This document shows positions 6,190 through 21,512 of a stretch of DNA of 33,659 nt, one piece after another (positions within the stretch are counted from its first letter, which is position 1; each line of letters starts with the position of its first letter). The notes beneath the pieces were generated by a model. The model was not told the origin of the DNA, did no database searches, and was given only the letters and a program-made list of their open reading frames with translations. A program made the position numbers and the translations under genes. The stretch lies in assembly GCA_947508055.1 (NCBI GenBank), contig CANNRR010000021.1:1-33659 (forward strand), given 5' to 3'. This DNA is from Burkholderiales bacterium (GTDB lineage Bacteria > Pseudomonadota > Gammaproteobacteria > Burkholderiales > Burkholderiaceae_C).

Positions 6190-6204
6190 TGTAGTAAAAC
6201 AACA
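6190..6204. promoter_or_regulatory. RpiR/HexR-like operator site A, upstream of the phosphorylase gene
   Basis: TGTAGTAAAACAACA, imperfect palindrome 26 bp upstream of the glgP start; same pattern as sites B, C and D. Confidence 0.55.
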
Positions 6205-6300: not shown

Positions 6301-6315
6301 TGTAGTTAAATTACT
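6301..6315. promoter_or_regulatory. RpiR/HexR-like operator site B, upstream of the phosphorylase gene
   Basis: TGTAGTTAAATTACT, close to the HexR-type TGTARTWAAATTACA pattern. Confidence 0.55.
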
Positions 6316-6394: not shown

Positions 6395-8314
6395 TCAGCG
6401 ACTTTGCTGGGTCAGATGCGCCAACGAGCCCGCCACACTGACACCAGGTGCCTTGCGGCGTGCACCGACACCGTGCGCCCCGGGTACAACCTCATCGAGT
6501 TCGACTGTCGCCTCGTTACCCAATGCTGGCACCGCTGCACCACGATGCAAAGTAACACCAACCACCAAGATATCCACCATCAAAAGATGCAAAATGCGAC
6601 TGATCATGGGCACCTGCGTGGCAATGTCTTCGACATGGTCGACGATCAAAGCCAAGTCTGCTTTGCGGGCTAGGGGTGACTGACTCTCGGTGATAGCAAT
6701 CACTTTGGCACCGCGCGCCTGGGCCTTTTCGGCCACTGCCAGCAACTCCGTAATGCGGCCGCTACCGCTGATGATCAGCACCACCACGCTAGGTGTCAAC
6801 AAATTGGCGGCCAAGGTCTGCAACCGCGGATCGGTATGCGCCACCGCCGACACGCCAACGCGCAAGAACTTGAATTGAGCGTCGTTAGCTACTGCACCGT
6901 AATGCCCCACGGCATAAATCTCCACCCGAATCGAATCCGCAATAAGACGCATGGCACGCTCCATGCTGTCGCGGTTCAAATGGTCACGCGCCTGCAGAAT
7001 CGCCGATGCCGTATTGCCCAACACCTTGGCACCAAGTTCCAGCATAGAGTCATCGCCGGTCACCTGGGTGTGGGTAATCGGAATGGTGCCGGTCAAGCCG
7101 GATGCCAGCCGCAGTTTAAAATCCGACAAACCTTCGCAACCCAATGAACGACAAAAACGGATCACGGTGGGTTGACTGACATCGGCAGAGCGTGCAATCG
7201 TGGCGATCGGGTCATTCAAGGCAGATCGAGGTTGAGCCAGCACGTGCAGCGCAACCCGCTGTTCGGCAGGCGACAAACTGGTCAGTGCTCGGCGAATTTG
7301 CCCCAGGATAGCTGACCCGTTGGCTCCGTCAAGCTCGCGCAATTGTGACGTCAAAATAGCCGAAGCTCCCAGCAAGGTGGCATCGACAGCGGTAATCACA
7401 AAGGTCGGAATGCCCTTCATGTAATCCGCGAATCGGCCCTTGTCTTCAAAGCGCTCGCGAAACGGGGACTGATCAAAGTACAGACCCAGACGGGGCACAA
7501 TGCCACCACCAATATAAATACCCCCAAAGGCGCCCTGACTCACCGCCAAATTGGCTGCGGCGGTTCCCAAAATGGCGCAAAAAACATCAATAGTTTCTTT
7601 GCAGAGCGCATCGCTGCCGTCCAACGCCAGACGGGTGATTTCGGGCGCATCCAAAACGTTCTCCGGCAACCCTGCGCGGTCAGTCAAGGCCCGAAATATC
7701 AGTTCGATGCCAGAGCCCGACAACAGACGCTCAAACGACACGTGCGGGTATTGGCGCCATGCATATTGGAGGATGGCAATTTCACGCTCGTCTTGCGGCG
7801 AGAAACTGGTGTGCCCACCCTCGGTACCCAGCGCAATCCAGCCATCGCCGGCAGGAATCAAACCCGAAACGCCGAGACCCGTTCCTGCGCCAATTAGTCC
7901 AACCACGCTGCGCGGAACAGCAACACCCCCACCAAACTGGTGACGCTGTTGTGCAGAAAGACCGGGTACAGACATCGCCAACGCGGTGAAGTCGTTCACG
8001 ACCACCAGGTTGTCAAAGCCCAACCGCTGGCGCATTTCCCCAATCGAAAACTTCCAGTGGTAATTGGTCATGCGCACTTCGTCACCCGCCACCGGGTTGG
8101 CAATTGCCACCGCCGCATGTTTGATGTCTCCATGCGAGACACCCAGTAGCCCCGACAGGTAAGCCGAAACGGCCGCATGAAAGTCAGGAAAATCAGCGCA
8201 ACGCAATGATGCACTTTGCTCGAACACGCGGGGCGCAACTTCGAGTGCAAACCGCGCAAACGTACCGCCAATATCGGCAATCAGGCGCGGATGGTCAAAG
8301 CGGGCTTCGGACAT
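6395..8314 (-). CDS. Bifunctional glucokinase / RpiR (HexR-like) transcriptional regulator fusion
   Basis: 639 aa; N-terminal glucokinase (ADIGGTFARFALE, VVNDFTALAMS, IGAGTGLGVSGLIP, EGGHTSF), then HTH_6 (LNDPIATIARSADVSQPTVIRFCRSLGCEGLSDFKLRL) and SIS domain (IYAVGHYGAVANDAQFKFLRVG). Confidence 0.93.
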   Translation of the reverse strand: MSEARFDHPRLIADIGGTFARFALEVAPRVFEQSASLRCADFPDFHAAVSAYLSGLLGVSHGDIKHAAVAIANPVAGDEVRMTNYHWKFSIGEMRQRLGFDNLVVVNDFTALAMSVPGLSAQQRHQFGGGVAVPRSVVGLIGAGTGLGVSGLIPAGDGWIALGTEGGHTSFSPQDEREIAILQYAWRQYPHVSFERLLSGSGIELIFRALTDRAGLPENVLDAPEITRLALDGSDALCKETIDVFCAILGTAAANLAVSQGAFGGIYIGGGIVPRLGLYFDQSPFRERFEDKGRFADYMKGIPTFVITAVDATLLGASAILTSQLRELDGANGSAILGQIRRALTSLSPAEQRVALHVLAQPRSALNDPIATIARSADVSQPTVIRFCRSLGCEGLSDFKLRLASGLTGTIPITHTQVTGDDSMLELGAKVLGNTASAILQARDHLNRDSMERAMRLIADSIRVEIYAVGHYGAVANDAQFKFLRVGVSAVAHTDPRLQTLAANLLTPSVVVLIISGSGRITELLAVAEKAQARGAKVIAITESQSPLARKADLALIVDHVEDIATQVPMISRILHLLMVDILVVGVTLHRGAAVPALGNEATVELDEVVPGAHGVGARRKAPGVSVAGSLAHLTQQSR

Positions 8315-8379: not shown

Positions 8380-9354
8380 TCAAGGCAACGTGTCGAGCGC
8401 CCGGCCAGCACCCACCAGGGCCGGCGTGGACGCGGTGATAACCCAAACCGGCAACACGGAAAGCCACTGCCGGTAGCGCCCCTTGTTTTCAAAACACTGC
8501 CGAAATAAGGCGTCATCAAATGCAGTTCCCAGCCGCGGTACAACGCCCCCTCCAATATAGACACCACCGAGCGACCCCAGCGTTAACGCCAAATTGCCGG
8601 CCACGCTGCCCAAAAAACGGGTGAAATAATGCACCGCCTGCACACACTGTGCGTCCGACCCGGCTATTGCGGCAGTCGTCACATCGGAGGCCACCAGTGC
8701 GCGCGCAGGTCGATCTTCCAGCGCGCATATGACCTGATACAAATTGACCAGACCCGGCCCTGAGAGCACACGCTCTGCACTGACGTGGACAAACTTTTTG
8801 CGCAGCAGGGATAGCAAGTCGGCCTCAGTGTCATCGCTGGCAGACAGCGTCACATGGCCACCCTCGCCGCTCAAGGCGGTGTAGTGCCCTGCTGCGTCCG
8901 GCACCAGTCCAGACACGCCCAGGCCTGTGCCAGGACCCAGCAGTGCGATGGTAGCGCCCGCTACTGCAGTTCCGCCACCTATGGGACGGAGGTCAGCCGC
9001 CTTTAGCGCAGGCAAACTCATGGCCATCGCGGTAAAGTCATTAACCACCAGGCAACGCTCCAACCCCAACGCCTTTTGAAACGCAGCAATAGAGAAACGC
9101 CAAGTACCGTTGGTCAACCGCACTTCGTCACCCGTTACCGCTGTTGCGATACCGATACCCGCCCAAACGGGGTTCTTGCGGCCATGTGCCTCCAAATATT
9201 TGACTGCGGATTCATGAATGGATGCGCTCGCCTCGCAAGGTTGAACCGAGATATCGGCCAAATCAGCAACAGCAGACTCCTGCCACGCCCAACGGGCATT
9301 GGTTCCGCCAATGTCTCCCAACAACCTCGGATAGCCTTGATCCATTCTCAACAT
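8380..9354 (-). CDS. glk: Glucokinase (ROK-independent Glk family)
   Basis: 324 aa; LLGDIGGTNARWAW, VVNDFTAMAMSLPAL, LLGPGTGLGVSGLVP, GEGGHVTLSASDDTE. Confidence 0.92.
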   Translation of the reverse strand: MLRMDQGYPRLLGDIGGTNARWAWQESAVADLADISVQPCEASASIHESAVKYLEAHGRKNPVWAGIGIATAVTGDEVRLTNGTWRFSIAAFQKALGLERCLVVNDFTAMAMSLPALKAADLRPIGGGTAVAGATIALLGPGTGLGVSGLVPDAAGHYTALSGEGGHVTLSASDDTEADLLSLLRKKFVHVSAERVLSGPGLVNLYQVICALEDRPARALVASDVTTAAIAGSDAQCVQAVHYFTRFLGSVAGNLALTLGSLGGVYIGGGVVPRLGTAFDDALFRQCFENKGRYRQWLSVLPVWVITASTPALVGAGRALDTLP

Positions 9355-9408
9355 CCTTTATGGTGACCAATGAGTGGCCCTATTTGCAGTCAACCAACAT
9401 CAAAAAAA

Positions 9409-9434
9409 TACCCCATCGGGTAAGCGATGGGGTA
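9409..9434 (-). terminator. Intrinsic terminator-like hairpin inside the glk 5' leader
   Basis: Minus strand TACCCCATCG-CTTACC-CGATGGGGTA followed by TTTTTTT; perfect 10-bp stem, 55 bp upstream of the glk ATG. Confidence 0.7.
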
Positions 9435-9514
9435 AACCGTTTTAAAAACCCAACCAACCCAAAACATCCCTTGCATTAACAAAACCGCATCGCTAGGTTT
9501 CAACTGAAGCTCGA

Positions 9515-9542
9515 CATGTAAATGTAGTTTGATTACAGTCAA
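9515..9542 (-). promoter_or_regulatory. Predicted sigma70-like promoter of glk
   Basis: Minus strand TTGACT (9542..9537), 16-nt spacer, TACATG (9520..9515); the -10 is weak (3/6). Confidence 0.4.
9523..9537. promoter_or_regulatory. RpiR/HexR-like operator site C, in the divergent glk/TonB-receptor region
   Basis: TGTAGTTTGATTACA; falls between the predicted -35 and -10 of the glk promoter. Confidence 0.6.
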
Positions 9543-9777
9543 AAACGAAATACAAACCATTTCATCGGAATCAGGATAAGTTTAGACCAAAACCGTTGCT
9601 ATTTGGGCAAAATAAGCGCATAAATTCACAAAATCTTTACTTTTAAGGGTTTATACCTATGTCTGAATATTTCTTGTTTTGATACAAATGGGATGCAGCC
9701 GAGGATTCACCGAATGTCGGCCTAGCCTTTGACGCCCCTCAATGAATGTGCAAACCACGTGTACTAGGAAATAATTT

Positions 9778-12627
9778 ATGAAGAACACCCCCACTCAGCG
9801 CGTCGGCGCGCTCAACACACGCAGATCGCTGTTCAAACTAGGCCCTATCGCTGCGGGTTGTGCCGCGTTGATCATTACCAGCAATGGCGCCTTTGCGCAA
9901 GATGCGTCCGGCCTCAGCACTGTCACAGTTACCGGTATTCGTAAAGGTATTGAAGCAGCGATTTCAACCAAGCGAAACTCCGACTCGATCGTGGACGCAA
10001 TCTCTGCGGAAGACATCGGAAAGCTGCCTGATGCCACGGTCGCTGAATCGATCGCACGGTTGCCAGGTGTAACAGCCCAGCGCGACATGCGCACTGGCAA
10101 GGCATCGACCATCAGCATCCGTGGCATGTCGCCTGATTTCAACGGGTCGCTGTTGAATGGTCGCGAGCAAGCGTCTACAGGCGACAGCCGTGCGCCGTCG
10201 TTTGACGTCTATCCCGCTGAGTTGATGAGCGGGATCGTTGTCTACAAAACACCTGACGCCCAATTGGTAGGACAAGGCCTGTCATCCACGACCGATCTTC
10301 GCACTCTGAAGCCACTAGATTTCCCAGGCCGCACAATTGCCGTCAATTTGAAAAAGAAGACCACAGGCATTGGCTCTGGCGCTCCGGAACAGGGTGACGG
10401 CAATAATGGCAGCTTCTCGTATGTCGACCAATTTGCCGACCGCACCATTGGTTTAGCCCTGGGTGTGACGCGAACGCGCGAAAGCAATAACCAGCAAGTC
10501 AAATTTGACTCATGGGGTGGATGGGCGGCGGACTGGAATAACCCTGCCACAGGTGCTTCGGTCAAAGTACCCGGCGGCTTCAAAGCCGATGTCGAGACCA
10601 CTGGTCAAGACCGTGATGCCGTGTTGGCCGTGCTGCAATTCAACCCTAGCAAAGATTTTAAAACGACCGTTGACGTTCTGTCCTCAAAAGGCAAGGGCAC
10701 TTACCGTCGCACCGGTCTGGAAGGCGCGGTTGCGGGCGGCGCCGGCGATTATGATCCCGATGGCGTATTGAGCAACGCAACAGTTGTCGGCGGTGTTGCA
10801 ACATCGGGCACGATTAACAATTACAAGGGTGTGGTCCGTAACCATATGACCACCTATGACGACAGCCTGGTGTCAATTGGCCTGAACTCCGCCTTGACGA
10901 CCGGGACATGGACAACCACTCTCGACTTGGCAAATTCCAAGGCTACACGTGACGAGCAGCGCTATGAAACCACGGCCGGTCAACCAGGGGATTACAAAGG
11001 CAATACAGCTGGCCTTGCGCCTCTGGGCAGCATTTCCTGGACCGGCTTCAACGGTAGTAATTTCGAGGACGTGAAGTACGCGACGAGCGTGAACTACGCC
11101 GACCGCTCCAAGATCGCGTTGACTGATATCAACGGATGGGGCGGTACCGACAACGGCATGCGTTTTGCGCAGGCAGGTTATTTGGCTCGACCCAGTGAAA
11201 CTGACACGGTCAACAATTTCCGTTTGACTGAAGCCAAGGAACTGGATTGGGGCCCGCTGGTATCCGCCCAGTTTGGTGTCAATGTCGCCAAGCGGGAAAA
11301 GCAGCACTCGTCTTTGGAGTACACGCTTCAGATCAAAGGCCAGGGTGCTTTGGGTTCCGTGCCAATTCCCGGAACGACCACCATGACTACGGCAAATGGC
11401 GTTCCAATTGCCACCTTCGACCCTGCTGGAAGCGACGGCAGCATTTATGGTCTGGTAAACAAGGTTGACGGCGGCATTGTAGAGAAGCAATGGGGCGTAA
11501 CCGAAGACGTGACGACGACCTTCATCAAGGGTGATATCGACAGCACCGTCTTGGGCATGCAACTGCGCGGCAATGTTGGCACGCAGTTTGTGAACAGCAA
11601 GCAGAACTCCACTGGTGTCACTTACAACACTAGCGCCTGCCAAAAGACTGCTGCGACATGTCCCACCAACACGGTGTCACTGGGCTCCAGCTATACCGAC
11701 GTATTACCAAGCTTGAACCTGGCCTTGAGCTTGCCTAATGATCAGGTTCTGCGCTTCGCCGCAGCCAAAGTTATGGCACGTCCATCCATGGCGGACATGA
11801 AGGCAACTGGCAGCTTTGGCCTAGCCCAAACTGGTTCCGACGCGATCAACCCGATCTTGCGCGGCGGTGGCGGAAACCCTGGTTTGGAACCCTTCCGTGC
11901 CAACGCTGTCGACCTCTCGTTCGAGAAGTATTTTGGCAAAAAGGGCGTGATCAGCGTAGCAGCTTTCTATAAGAACCTGGATAGCTATATCCTGTCGATT
12001 GGGCGTCCTGTTGATTTCGCACCCTACATTTCCGCATCCGCTTCGTTGCCTTCTACAGGTCTTTACAAGGGGTCAACCAAGGGCATATGGACAAGCAAAA
12101 TCAACGGAACGGGCGGCAAAATCCAGGGTTATGAAATAAACTTTGACGTCCCCTTCTCGCTGGCAACTGCGGCGCTTGACGGCTTCGGGATGCAAATGAA
12201 CATCTCGGACACAACCAGCGATGTCAAGCTGCCCTCCAACTCGGTAGATGGCAAGGATCTAGGTGCCAGCATTCCGCTGCCAGGTTTGTCGCGTACGGTT
12301 AAGAACATGAAGCTGTACTACGAAGCCAATGGCTTCCAAATCGGGGTTGCCCAGAAGACCCGTTCCGCGTTCATTGGAGAAATCACCGATTTTGAAGACT
12401 CAAAGAAGACGACCTGGATCAAGGGCGAGTCTATCGTTGATTTGCAATTGGCTTATGAATTCCGCACTGGTTACTTCAAGGGCTTGTCTCTGACCATGTC
12501 GGCAAACAACTTCGGCGATGCGAAGTTCCAGCGCATGACAGTTGACGATACGACCGGTGAGGAGAAAATCGTTGACTCAGTCCAATACGGCAGGACCTAC
12601 AACTTCGGTCTGAACTACAAGTTCTAA
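9778..12627 (+). CDS. TonB-dependent receptor, likely maltodextrin/alpha-glucan-related
   Basis: 949 aa; signal region then STVTVTGIRKGIEAAISTKRNSDSIVDAISAEDIGKLPDATVAESIARLPGVTAQR plug domain; C-terminal YGRTYNFGLNYKF beta-strand. Confidence 0.92.
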   Translation: MKNTPTQRVGALNTRRSLFKLGPIAAGCAALIITSNGAFAQDASGLSTVTVTGIRKGIEAAISTKRNSDSIVDAISAEDIGKLPDATVAESIARLPGVTAQRDMRTGKASTISIRGMSPDFNGSLLNGREQASTGDSRAPSFDVYPAELMSGIVVYKTPDAQLVGQGLSSTTDLRTLKPLDFPGRTIAVNLKKKTTGIGSGAPEQGDGNNGSFSYVDQFADRTIGLALGVTRTRESNNQQVKFDSWGGWAADWNNPATGASVKVPGGFKADVETTGQDRDAVLAVLQFNPSKDFKTTVDVLSSKGKGTYRRTGLEGAVAGGAGDYDPDGVLSNATVVGGVATSGTINNYKGVVRNHMTTYDDSLVSIGLNSALTTGTWTTTLDLANSKATRDEQRYETTAGQPGDYKGNTAGLAPLGSISWTGFNGSNFEDVKYATSVNYADRSKIALTDINGWGGTDNGMRFAQAGYLARPSETDTVNNFRLTEAKELDWGPLVSAQFGVNVAKREKQHSSLEYTLQIKGQGALGSVPIPGTTTMTTANGVPIATFDPAGSDGSIYGLVNKVDGGIVEKQWGVTEDVTTTFIKGDIDSTVLGMQLRGNVGTQFVNSKQNSTGVTYNTSACQKTAATCPTNTVSLGSSYTDVLPSLNLALSLPNDQVLRFAAAKVMARPSMADMKATGSFGLAQTGSDAINPILRGGGGNPGLEPFRANAVDLSFEKYFGKKGVISVAAFYKNLDSYILSIGRPVDFAPYISASASLPSTGLYKGSTKGIWTSKINGTGGKIQGYEINFDVPFSLATAALDGFGMQMNISDTTSDVKLPSNSVDGKDLGASIPLPGLSRTVKNMKLYYEANGFQIGVAQKTRSAFIGEITDFEDSKKTTWIKGESIVDLQLAYEFRTGYFKGLSLTMSANNFGDAKFQRMTVDDTTGEEKIVDSVQYGRTYNFGLNYKF

Positions 12628-18076: not shown

Positions 18077-19083
18077 GGCGCTCCTAGGATACGCGACACC
18101 TGCGGCGAGGTGGTGTGCCCGTTGGTCAGCAAAAAGATCAAGGGTATCTCCACGCGCGCAGCCCAATCCGTCTCGCTGTGGCCGGTTCCCTCAAACACGC
18201 GGGAGTTCCAATTGTCCGCTGCATAGCCCAAGTCCCTTCCAATGGCATCGACCTGAATCTGGTGCTTGCCATAGATCGCATCAAGCCCTGTCGTGCCATG
18301 GTCGATATAGATTCGGTGCGATCCAGGACGTGGCAGGTTTCCCCGCAAGTAGGTGAATGCAGCAAGTGGGAAAACTTCGTTTTGAAGCTGCTCAGGAGTC
18401 CCCCACGCACTGGGCCGCCCGACCCAATGTGTGGACAAAGCCGCTACACCGCCAAACACGCCAGGGTATTCGCACAGGGCATACAGTGAAATCATGCCTC
18501 CCATGCTGGAGCCCATGAGAAAGGTAGCGGCAGGCTCGGTCCTCGTGGAGTAGGTGCTGTCAATCACCGGCTTGAGTTCTTCCACGAGGTAACGCAGATA
18601 GGAATCGGCCATGGTGCGGCCCCATTGCGCCCGCCGGACATAGTCTTCGCGCACTTCGGCTGGCACCAGTGCCAAGTATTTCTCGGGGTAGTACTCACTG
18701 TAGCGGTACTTGCCGTTGTTGGGGATGCCCACCACAATCGTGTCCTGCACCCTGCCCTGTTTCATCAACTTTGATAGCACCTCATGCACGTTCCACGCTG
18801 CCTGGTTCCAGGTTTTGCTTGCATCGAACAGGTTTTGTCCGTCCGGCATGTACAGCACGGCGTAGCGTTTGTCCGGTGTGTAATCGGCAGGCAGCCACAC
18901 GTCAATGGGACGGGCATCCACGATTGCCGACGCCACCCCAGTCAGTCGCTCGATGCGACCCACAGAGACGGATGGTGGTGCGTCGGCCCAAGGGGCGTCT
19001 GCCTGTCCCAGAAAGGGCGTCAACAGCATAGGGGCTCCACTCAAAAGCTGTACAACACGGCGCCGATTGCTCCAGCGATTCAT
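18073..19083 (-). CDS. Alpha/beta-hydrolase, esterase-D/CE1-like, secreted
   Basis: 336 aa; VLYMPDGQNLFD, FLMGSSMGGMISLYAL nucleophile elbow, GTGHSETDW His region; N-terminal signal-like segment. Confidence 0.85.
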   Translation of the reverse strand: MNRWSNRRRVVQLLSGAPMLLTPFLGQADAPWADAPPSVSVGRIERLTGVASAIVDARPIDVWLPADYTPDKRYAVLYMPDGQNLFDASKTWNQAAWNVHEVLSKLMKQGRVQDTIVVGIPNNGKYRYSEYYPEKYLALVPAEVREDYVRRAQWGRTMADSYLRYLVEELKPVIDSTYSTRTEPAATFLMGSSMGGMISLYALCEYPGVFGGVAALSTHWVGRPSAWGTPEQLQNEVFPLAAFTYLRGNLPRPGSHRIYIDHGTTGLDAIYGKHQIQVDAIGRDLGYAADNWNSRVFEGTGHSETDWAARVEIPLIFLLTNGHTTSPQVSRILGAP

Positions 19084-21512
19084 TGCACTCGCTTGAAGAC
19101 AGAGTAGCCCCCGGCTGTCCGCACATCGGGCGCCACCACGCTGAACCCACCCGCGGGAACCGTGACCGTCGCCATGGATGCCATCACCCGAACCGGCTTG
19201 GCATTTGGGTTTAACAAGTCCACCAGCGACGAACCATTCATCAGTTTCGAGTTGGCCATCAACACACGTTCGGTCACCGGTGTTTTGCCCGGATTGGCCA
19301 GCACTACCACAGTGTCCTGCACACGATCGGTGTAGCGCTCAAACGCCAGCAGCTTATGGCTGGTGACCAGACGGAAATTGCCAATGCGCAGGGCGCGGTG
19401 GTCTTTGCGCAGCTGAATGAGTTGTTTGGTCCACTGCAGCGTGGAGTTGCTACTGCGCACCAAATCCCAGCGCATCGGCGAACGGTTGGCCGGGTCTTCG
19501 CCTCCGGTCATGCCCAGCTCACTCCCGTAATAAAGGTTGGGCGCACCGGGCAGCGTGAACTGCAGCAGTTGGGCCAGGCGTTGTTGCGGCACCTTTGGCA
19601 GCACGTGGGTCAGCCGGTCGTTGTCATGGTTGTCCAGCAGCAGCCACGACTTCAACATGGGTTCGATGCCGGACTCCCGCACCGTGCGGTCAATCATGGC
19701 TACAGCAGTAGGCGGTGCAATCAGGCCGTTGACAGTATTCAAAATCACATCGCGCAGCGTGAAGTTCATCACCGCATCCACAGCGGGAAACCACTCTTTG
19801 GGGAAATTGGGGATTTCGCCGACCACCAGCGACCCCGGCCGGGCAGCGTGCGCCGCGGCGGTCAACTCTGCCAGGTACTTGGGACCCAGGTCGGGCGCCA
19901 CATCCAGACGCCAGCCGTCAATGCCGTCGCGCAACCAGGTCTGCACCACCGAGTCTGGCTTGGCATAGAGGTAATCCCGCACGGCGGGGTTTTCCAGCTT
20001 GAGTTCCGGCAGGTTGGGAGCCTGATACCAGCCGCGCGCACCGCCCGGGTATTGGTCACCAAAGAAAAACCAGTCTCGAAATGGGCTATTGGGATTGGAC
20101 TGAGCCTCTTTGAACTTTTCCGAGTTGCGGCCCATGTGGTTGAATACCCCGTCCAGTACCAATTTCATACCCTTGGTTTGCGTCGCATTGGTCAGTTGGG
20201 TCATATCCTCCCGGGTGCCAAATTCGGGTGATATTTTCAAATAGTCCAGCGCATCGTATTTGTGGTTGGTGTAGGCCAGATGAATGGGGTTGAGGTAAAG
20301 CACGTCTACGCCCAAGTCCTGCAGGTAACCCAGTTTTGAGGTCACGCCAGGTAGATCACCACCCCAAAAGTCCAGCTCGTGGCTCCACACGTTGGCCGAT
20401 TTTTGGTACGTGCCGCGCTTGGTCTCCTCGTTCCAGCGGTGCAGCACTTTGGGCGCCGGGTACAGGGCGCGCTTGGCATCCAGATTCACCGGCGGCACGA
20501 AGCGGTCGACCATCACCTGGTAGACGATGGCACCGTTGCGCCAATCCTGCTCGCGGGCTGTGAACACACCAGCCAAAGGGATATCAGACGGACCTGCATA
20601 GGGCGGGGCTGCCAGCCCGGTGGTAACGACACCTGCAGTATTCACCGCGACCGGTTTCCCGACACGACGCGCCTGCTGCAAAAAAGGTACGAGTTGATCG
20701 CGCCAGACCCGATACCCAACAGCATTCGGATGCAGGCCATCATTGAAGTAGCTGTCAATCTGCTGGCCTTTGGCGTCGACAAAATCCGAATAGAGATCCA
20801 GATAGGAAAGGTAGCCGGCGTAGGGCGGGCTCACCGCCAACGCTACCAGTCTCTTATTCACCGGCAATACAACAGCAGTATTCTTGGTGGCCTCATTGGT
20901 TGGAAGCAGAGACTGCAATACGATGTGGGCATTGGGACGTGCCTGGTGCAACCTGGCGATGACCGCGCGAATGCCTTCAAACACGCTGTCGGCCACTGGC
21001 TCCTCAGCGTCCCAGGTGTTGTTGATCCCAATGAGCAAAACGATGAATTCCGGGTTTAGCGCCGGATTGTCCAGCTGCCCATCGCCACCCTCCAATCGGG
21101 GCGCCAGTCTCTTCAGGACATGCTCGATGCGGTCACCTGAAATGCCCAGGTTCAGCCCATAGTTTTCTGGGTGCGAACGGTCAAAAGACTGGTCCCAGAC
21201 TTTTCTTCCAAATTTTTGCCCCTTCACCCAGGGGTTGTCATCCAGAAGCCAGAAGTCCGAAATGGAGTCTCCGACAAACAGCAATTTGACAGCACCAAGG
21301 TCTTTGGCACTGCGCAGATGGGCATCAATGTCATCTGCCCGGCGTTGCCAGTGCTCGATGCGCGCTGACGGCTTTGTCGATTTGAATTCGGCCGCGCAAA
21401 GTGCACTTGACAACACACACCCTGCCAGCGCTGTCGTGGTCCAACGCATTGCATTGCGTGACCAGGCTCTGATCATGGTTCGGGTTCCGAGGATAGGTTG
21501 TCGGGTTGTCAT
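19080..21512 (-). CDS. SGNH/GDSL hydrolase fused to GH13 alpha-amylase
   Basis: 810 aa single ORF; N-terminal LLFVGDSISDFW, LGISGDRIEHVL, LIGINNTW, DGLHPNAVGY; C-terminal VLDGVFNHMG, DGWRLDVAPD, VVGEIPNFP, LLLDNHDNDR. Confidence 0.9.
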   Translation of the reverse strand: MTTRQPILGTRTMIRAWSRNAMRWTTTALAGCVLSSALCAAEFKSTKPSARIEHWQRRADDIDAHLRSAKDLGAVKLLFVGDSISDFWLLDDNPWVKGQKFGRKVWDQSFDRSHPENYGLNLGISGDRIEHVLKRLAPRLEGGDGQLDNPALNPEFIVLLIGINNTWDAEEPVADSVFEGIRAVIARLHQARPNAHIVLQSLLPTNEATKNTAVVLPVNKRLVALAVSPPYAGYLSYLDLYSDFVDAKGQQIDSYFNDGLHPNAVGYRVWRDQLVPFLQQARRVGKPVAVNTAGVVTTGLAAPPYAGPSDIPLAGVFTAREQDWRNGAIVYQVMVDRFVPPVNLDAKRALYPAPKVLHRWNEETKRGTYQKSANVWSHELDFWGGDLPGVTSKLGYLQDLGVDVLYLNPIHLAYTNHKYDALDYLKISPEFGTREDMTQLTNATQTKGMKLVLDGVFNHMGRNSEKFKEAQSNPNSPFRDWFFFGDQYPGGARGWYQAPNLPELKLENPAVRDYLYAKPDSVVQTWLRDGIDGWRLDVAPDLGPKYLAELTAAAHAARPGSLVVGEIPNFPKEWFPAVDAVMNFTLRDVILNTVNGLIAPPTAVAMIDRTVRESGIEPMLKSWLLLDNHDNDRLTHVLPKVPQQRLAQLLQFTLPGAPNLYYGSELGMTGGEDPANRSPMRWDLVRSSNSTLQWTKQLIQLRKDHRALRIGNFRLVTSHKLLAFERYTDRVQDTVVVLANPGKTPVTERVLMANSKLMNGSSLVDLLNPNAKPVRVMASMATVTVPAGGFSVVAPDVRTAGGYSVFKRVQ

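Follow-up and report, generated by a model that had tools for sequence, protein, structure and literature searches.

The glk locus and the divergent TonB receptor gene

The window, a stretch of 33,659 nucleotides from a Rhodoferax genome (G000), contains one minus-strand maltodextrin cluster, which encodes glucokinase (glk), a glucokinase-RpiR/HexR fusion, an alpha-glucan phosphorylase and a 4-alpha-glucanotransferase. The plus strand, divergent from the glk cluster, carries a TonB receptor gene and a halogenase-like gene; GH13 enzymes and one MalEFGK-like transporter are encoded further along the same locus. The 810-aa protein encoded at 19080-21512 combines one GDSL lipase/acylhydrolase domain with one alpha-amylase (GH13) domain. 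The genomes used for comparison (the other G-numbers) are Rhodoferax relatives, mostly fragmented MAGs, one per species. In these relatives the glk gene aligns to the ATG at 9345, and AAGGA at 9358-9354 is the ribosome-binding site of this ATG; the listed start at 9354 probably lies nine bases too far upstream. The positions of the features are collected in Table 1.

The TonB receptor adjoining glk (9778-12627; same locus in L112-L121) is of at least three types, which have been exchanged among species. Identity is 38-41% between most types and up to 97% within one type; between G084 and G000, the glk genes are 86% alike and the TonB genes only 40%. The promoter and signal-peptide regions are conserved across these swaps, which points to an exchange of receptors as modules downstream of a constant promoter. 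Few non-coding stretches of the locus are as well conserved as the element at 9642-9688 (TTTGTATCAAAACAAG...GACATAGG...TAAACCC) upstream of the receptor gene. It was found in all TonB-upstream regions examined and probably serves as the promoter of the TonB gene or as a site for a regulator.

Table 1. Features of the glk/TonB locus and of the phosphorylase promoter, in window coordinates
Feature	Position	Strand	Remark
Glucokinase-RpiR/HexR fusion gene	6395..8314	-	likely candidate for the regulator at the operators
Operator TGTTGTTTTACTACA ahead of phosphorylase gene	6190..6204	-	score 21.3
Second, weaker operator ahead of phosphorylase gene	6301..6315	-	score 15.9; 111 nt upstream of the first
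glk, glucokinase	8380..9345	-	start probably 9345, not 9354
Degenerate remnant of the start-proximal glk operator, TGTTGGTTGACTGCA	9385..9399	-	intact in relatives as TGTTGTTTGACTACA; G000 keeps only this remnant
Intrinsic terminator: perfect 10-bp hairpin (9434-9409) and T7 (9408-9402)	9402..9434	-	kept with compensatory changes in nine sequences
Conserved 5' flank GGTTGGTTGGGTTTTTAAAACGGTTTA, A-tract side of the terminator	9433..9459	-	common to relatives' glk leaders and TonB-receptor 3' ends
Proposed antiterminator segment AGCGATGCGG	9485..9494	-	conserved in no relative
RccR/HexR-type (RpiR family) operator TGTAGTTTGATTACA	9523..9537		best match in the window
Candidate -10 box TAAACT of the leader transcript	9579..9584	-	spacing to operator kept in six genomes
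TonB-dependent receptor gene, divergent	9778..12627	+	in G096, G003 and G071 the receptor here has the homologous terminator at its 3' end

The terminator hairpin and its relation to the TonB receptor gene

The hairpin ahead of glk is formed by TACCCCATCG-CTTACC-CGATGGGGTA and is followed by T7 (full stem-loop TACCCCATCGCTTACCCGATGGGGTA, minus strand). The perfect 10-bp stem and the T7 run, which a preliminary description of this DNA had reported, were confirmed at 9434-9402. That description placed the stem 55 nt before the glk ATG; the position of the hairpin is real, but counted from the probable start at 9345 the stem ends ~63 nt before. As revealed by a blastn search of the intergenic region in 100 genomes of the genus, the hairpin region is matched in G084, G116, G022 and G075. 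In these four other Rhodoferax species the hairpin is also located ahead of glk, with base-pair changes that preserve the stem; the G084 hairpin is letter-for-letter identical to that of the window. In G012 the same element lies upstream of the TonB gene with no glk behind it: it is flanked by the TonB upstream region and by the 3' end of one GH13 gene, and glk, which has a promoter of its own, lies beyond the TonB gene. Over nine copies of the element, the stem forms in 98.8% of cells, compared to 36-57% for slid controls. Compensatory changes affect two stem pairs, the outermost one and one that goes from UA to CG; the loop varies freely (CTTACC, TTCACC, TCAA and CTTGCG). No further convincing copies were found elsewhere in the window's genome, and a search of 400 genomes of the family gave only marginal matches, at ordinary terminators. 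Judged by its sequence and conservation, a genuine, conserved intrinsic terminator precedes glk.

To place the element, a covariance model was built from six intergenic copies, none of them from a TonB 3' end, and was run over 103 Rhodoferax genomes. It gave only nine strong matches, its own six plus G096 (E-value 2.4e-9, 55 bits), G003 (4.5e-6, 41.5 bits) and G071 (6.6e-6, 40.8 bits); in 14 key genomes, the off-locus background is no higher than 26.8 bits. All three additional matches lie at the same locus, directly 3' of the stop codon of the TonB-receptor gene and on the same strand (AATTACAAGTTTTAAGTAGGTTGGGTTCTCAATAGCGTTTCCCCCATCG in G096). The flank was also aligned without the hairpin. 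GTAGGTTGGGTTCTCAATAGCGTTT from the TonB 3' end of G096 aligns to GTTGGTTGGGTTCTCAAGAG-GTTT, which is common to the glk leaders of G022 and G075, and scores 42 against G075 and 33 against G022, whereas none of 24 unrelated terminator flanks scored above 20. The flank of G003 scores 32, whereas those of G071 (19) and G012 (18) are both within background. The hairpin and its 25-nt 5' flank thus match terminators directly after the TonB stop in G096 and G003. G071 was accepted because of its position, its hairpin and its TonB gene, which is 89% identical to that of G003; G012 is tied to the element by position and hairpin, its flank alone being weak.

On these comparisons, we regard the hairpin as homologous to the 3' terminator of the TonB-receptor gene at the same locus. 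Since the element is found in G012 without glk and also behind TonB genes, it belongs to the locus and not to glk. The earlier remark that there is no minus-strand gene for the hairpin to terminate is true in the window's genome, but in relatives the homologous element ends the TonB-receptor gene. No TonB coding remnants were seen by eye between the operator and the hairpin in G075, and the glk tree favours neither the intergenic nor the post-TonB position as the older one.

Operators and promoters of glk

In Pseudomonas carbon metabolism, the 15-bp RccR operator TGTAGT-N3-ACTACA is read by an RpiR-family protein (PMC5489143); our operator comparison rests on the motif from that study. The TGTTGTTTGACTACA operator matches this site, and the predicted operators carry the 15-bp palindrome near presumably regulated promoters. 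The sites at 9523-9537 and 6190-6204 score like the sites of the relatives, with ~0.25 chance sites expected in the window at scores >14. In hairpin-free relatives two operator sites lie ~110 nt apart before glk, a spacing like that of the phosphorylase pair; in G022 and G075, the operator at the phosphorylase promoter is immediately preceded by TAAACT/TAGACT. The glucokinase-RpiR/HexR fusion is the likely protein acting at these operators. The preliminary description had extended control by the glk leader to the phosphorylase gene, a suggestion weakened by the operator pair which this gene has of its own (6190-6204 and 6301-6315); the phosphorylase is therefore probably expressed by itself, with no need of the glk leader.

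Most hairpin-free congeners (G009, G104, G003, G071, G096, G025 and G078), and also G012, have one compact glk promoter adjoining the glk start, which consists of TAnACT (TA[GAC]ACT) and TGTTGTTTGACTACA or a close variant. This promoter has decayed in G022 and G075, where the glk operators remain and the -10 is lost, and the start-proximal stretch has been deleted in G000, G084 and G116. Between the T-run and the glk start of the latter three genomes no TAnnnT -10 box was found, and glk is therefore probably transcribed through the terminator in them. A non-sigma-70 promoter downstream of the hairpin, which would have escaped detection, is possible.

The hairpin had been described as lying downstream of a predicted promoter. 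Our consensus scan of 8500-10500 gave no minus-strand sigma-70-like site. The best candidate for the leader promoter is the TAAACT box at 9584-9579; in each of the six element-bearing genomes it precedes the operator (9537-9523) by 47-48 nt (47 nt in both G000 and G084). It has no clear -35, and among the hairpin-free genomes only G071 and G096 have near-matches. The box could also be fortuitous, passed on together with the rest of the region. Within 9579-9598 (CAACGGTTTTGGTCTAAACT), one CAACGTTTT-like motif recurs in the own glk promoters of G003 and G071 (ATCAACGTTTTCCC); it is possibly an activator site or a second repressor site.

Explanations for the terminator before glk

The preliminary description had proposed a conditional attenuator, in which 9494-9485 pairs with 9432-9423 and blocks the terminator upon a signal. 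The pairing itself was confirmed: AGCGATGCGG and CCCCATCGCT form nine Watson-Crick pairs over ten positions. A 9/10 match occurs in only 1.4% of dinucleotide-shuffled leaders (16% with G-U allowed), but it is weak on its own because it was picked after the fact. The best Watson-Crick matches of the relatives fall at unrelated places and reach 6/10 in G084, 7 in G116, 6 in G022, 8 in G075 and 7 in G012. G022 is without the antiterminator segment altogether, and the operator-to-hairpin stretch, which would hold it, is 41-141 nt in length and not alignable among the element-bearing genomes. Lack of conservation had been named beforehand as grounds against the switch; none of the five element-bearing relatives has the alternative pairing, not even G084 with its identical hairpin. 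When forced, it gives -24.7 kcal/mol, 9.5 kcal/mol weaker than the terminator fold (-34.2); with the 3' arm left out, the best leader fold is still 2.6 kcal/mol stronger. The suggestion of a riboswitch found no backing either, as the leader has no match to a known riboswitch or leader RNA at the gathering score in Rfam 15 (best 18.1 bits, 49.5 needed).

Taken together, the comparative test refutes the switch and retains the terminator. From the claim of conditional termination there remains a glk gene that is probably transcribed through a genuine terminator, but the RNA switch is without support. A fixed attenuating terminator is plausible. The conditional attenuator as first proposed is very improbable, although it could be confined to the window's species alone. 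One terminator plus a 9/10 complement in a single leader is not an attenuator.

The explanation we prefer, with a probability of about 0.5, is that glk stands behind an inherited TonB-type terminator, has lost its own promoter, and is expressed by leaky read-through under DNA-level repression by an RpiR-family protein. An inherited intrinsic terminator would have come into the glk/TonB intergenic region of some Rhodoferax; in the sub-clade of the window, the former start-proximal promoter of glk has been lost. Transcription of glk would probably start at a promoter further upstream, with TAAACT at 9584 as the candidate -10, and the gene would be reached only by RNA polymerase reading through the terminator. 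The expected products are a short leader RNA of ~165-175 nt and less full-length mRNA. On/off control would most likely be exerted by the operon-encoded RpiR/HexR-type repressor at 9523-9537, at the DNA level and not by an RNA switch.

Other explanations account for part of these observations. The stretch from promoter to hairpin may be a small-RNA gene of ~120-230 nt with a function of its own, read-through into glk being incidental. The unit of TAAACT, operator 47-48 nt on and terminator is also present in G012 with no glk behind it, and the 25-nt single-stranded flank beside the stem is more conserved than the remainder of the leader, both as such a gene would have it; however, conservation of the flank may reflect no more than its A-tract, which is part of the terminator, the variable, non-alignable operator-to-flank stretch (41-141 nt) would be unusual for a small-RNA body, and no Rfam family reached threshold. 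We consider the small RNA rather unlikely. In the literature, nothing relevant was found on glk attenuation or a small RNA in Rhodoferax. Slightly less probable still is an inert relic or an insulator against stray transcription between the divergent genes, with an unrecognised glk promoter downstream of it. It agrees with a terminator that came with the locus and not with glk, and with the 150-200 nt, including operators, which G022 and G075 keep between hairpin and glk; against it stand the missing TAnnnT box from T-run to start in G000, G084 and G116, and the perfect stem with compensatory changes in nine sequences, which argues for selection on termination.

Attenuation by a leader peptide, through a frame of 25 codons spanning the hairpin (9467-9390, MFWVGWVFKTVYPIAYPMGYFFDVG), is hardly credible. 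A similar frame exists in G084 (MSWFGRVFKKVDPIAYPMGFF...), and that of G116 reads VLKKVDPIVHPMGFF on inspection. However, the residues in common are those over the conserved stem and flank, a segment that does not code for protein in the TonB 3' copies; the ribosome-binding sites are in unfavourable positions, and the frame does not persist in G022, G075 or G012. The leader peptide was rejected, as its frame is kept only in G000, G084 and G116.

Returning to the inherited terminator with read-through, we tentatively consider one further step, which is possible but doubtful: a host 3' terminator was captured before an unrelated metabolic gene, the promoter of which was then lost, so that glucokinase became dependent on read-through, possibly regulated, as an emerging attenuator. 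As part of the same tentative scheme, living species may represent the intermediate stages, with a terminator and a decayed promoter in G022 and G075, and a deleted promoter in G000, G084 and G116.

Like classical terminator/antiterminator attenuators and riboswitches, glk has an intrinsic terminator in its presumed 5' leader; different from them, no conserved alternative pairing, aptamer or leader peptide was found here. The 15-bp operator is like that of RccR/HexR control in Pseudomonas (PMC5489143), and the operon here encodes a glucokinase-RpiR/HexR fusion. The ligand of the Pseudomonas RccR/HexR proteins is KDPG (PMC5489143), whereas the predicted regulator here is fused to a second glucokinase domain, and its operators are putative. 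The nearest described kind is the exapted 3' terminator, the capture here having possibly run from the receptor gene toward glk. In 'mobile attenuators', a 3' terminator has been exapted as an element of a 5' region (Naville and Gautheret 2010, PMC2965389); in the same way, a terminator related to the 3' end of one gene stands here immediately ahead of another, unrelated gene, whose expression it may attenuate. The donors of mobile attenuators are insertion sequences and prophages (PMC2965389), whereas the related terminator here is that of a host TonB-receptor gene at the same locus. If true, the glk leader would show a 5' terminator arising stepwise from the 3' end of an ordinary gene, with neither a mobile element nor a sensing switch.
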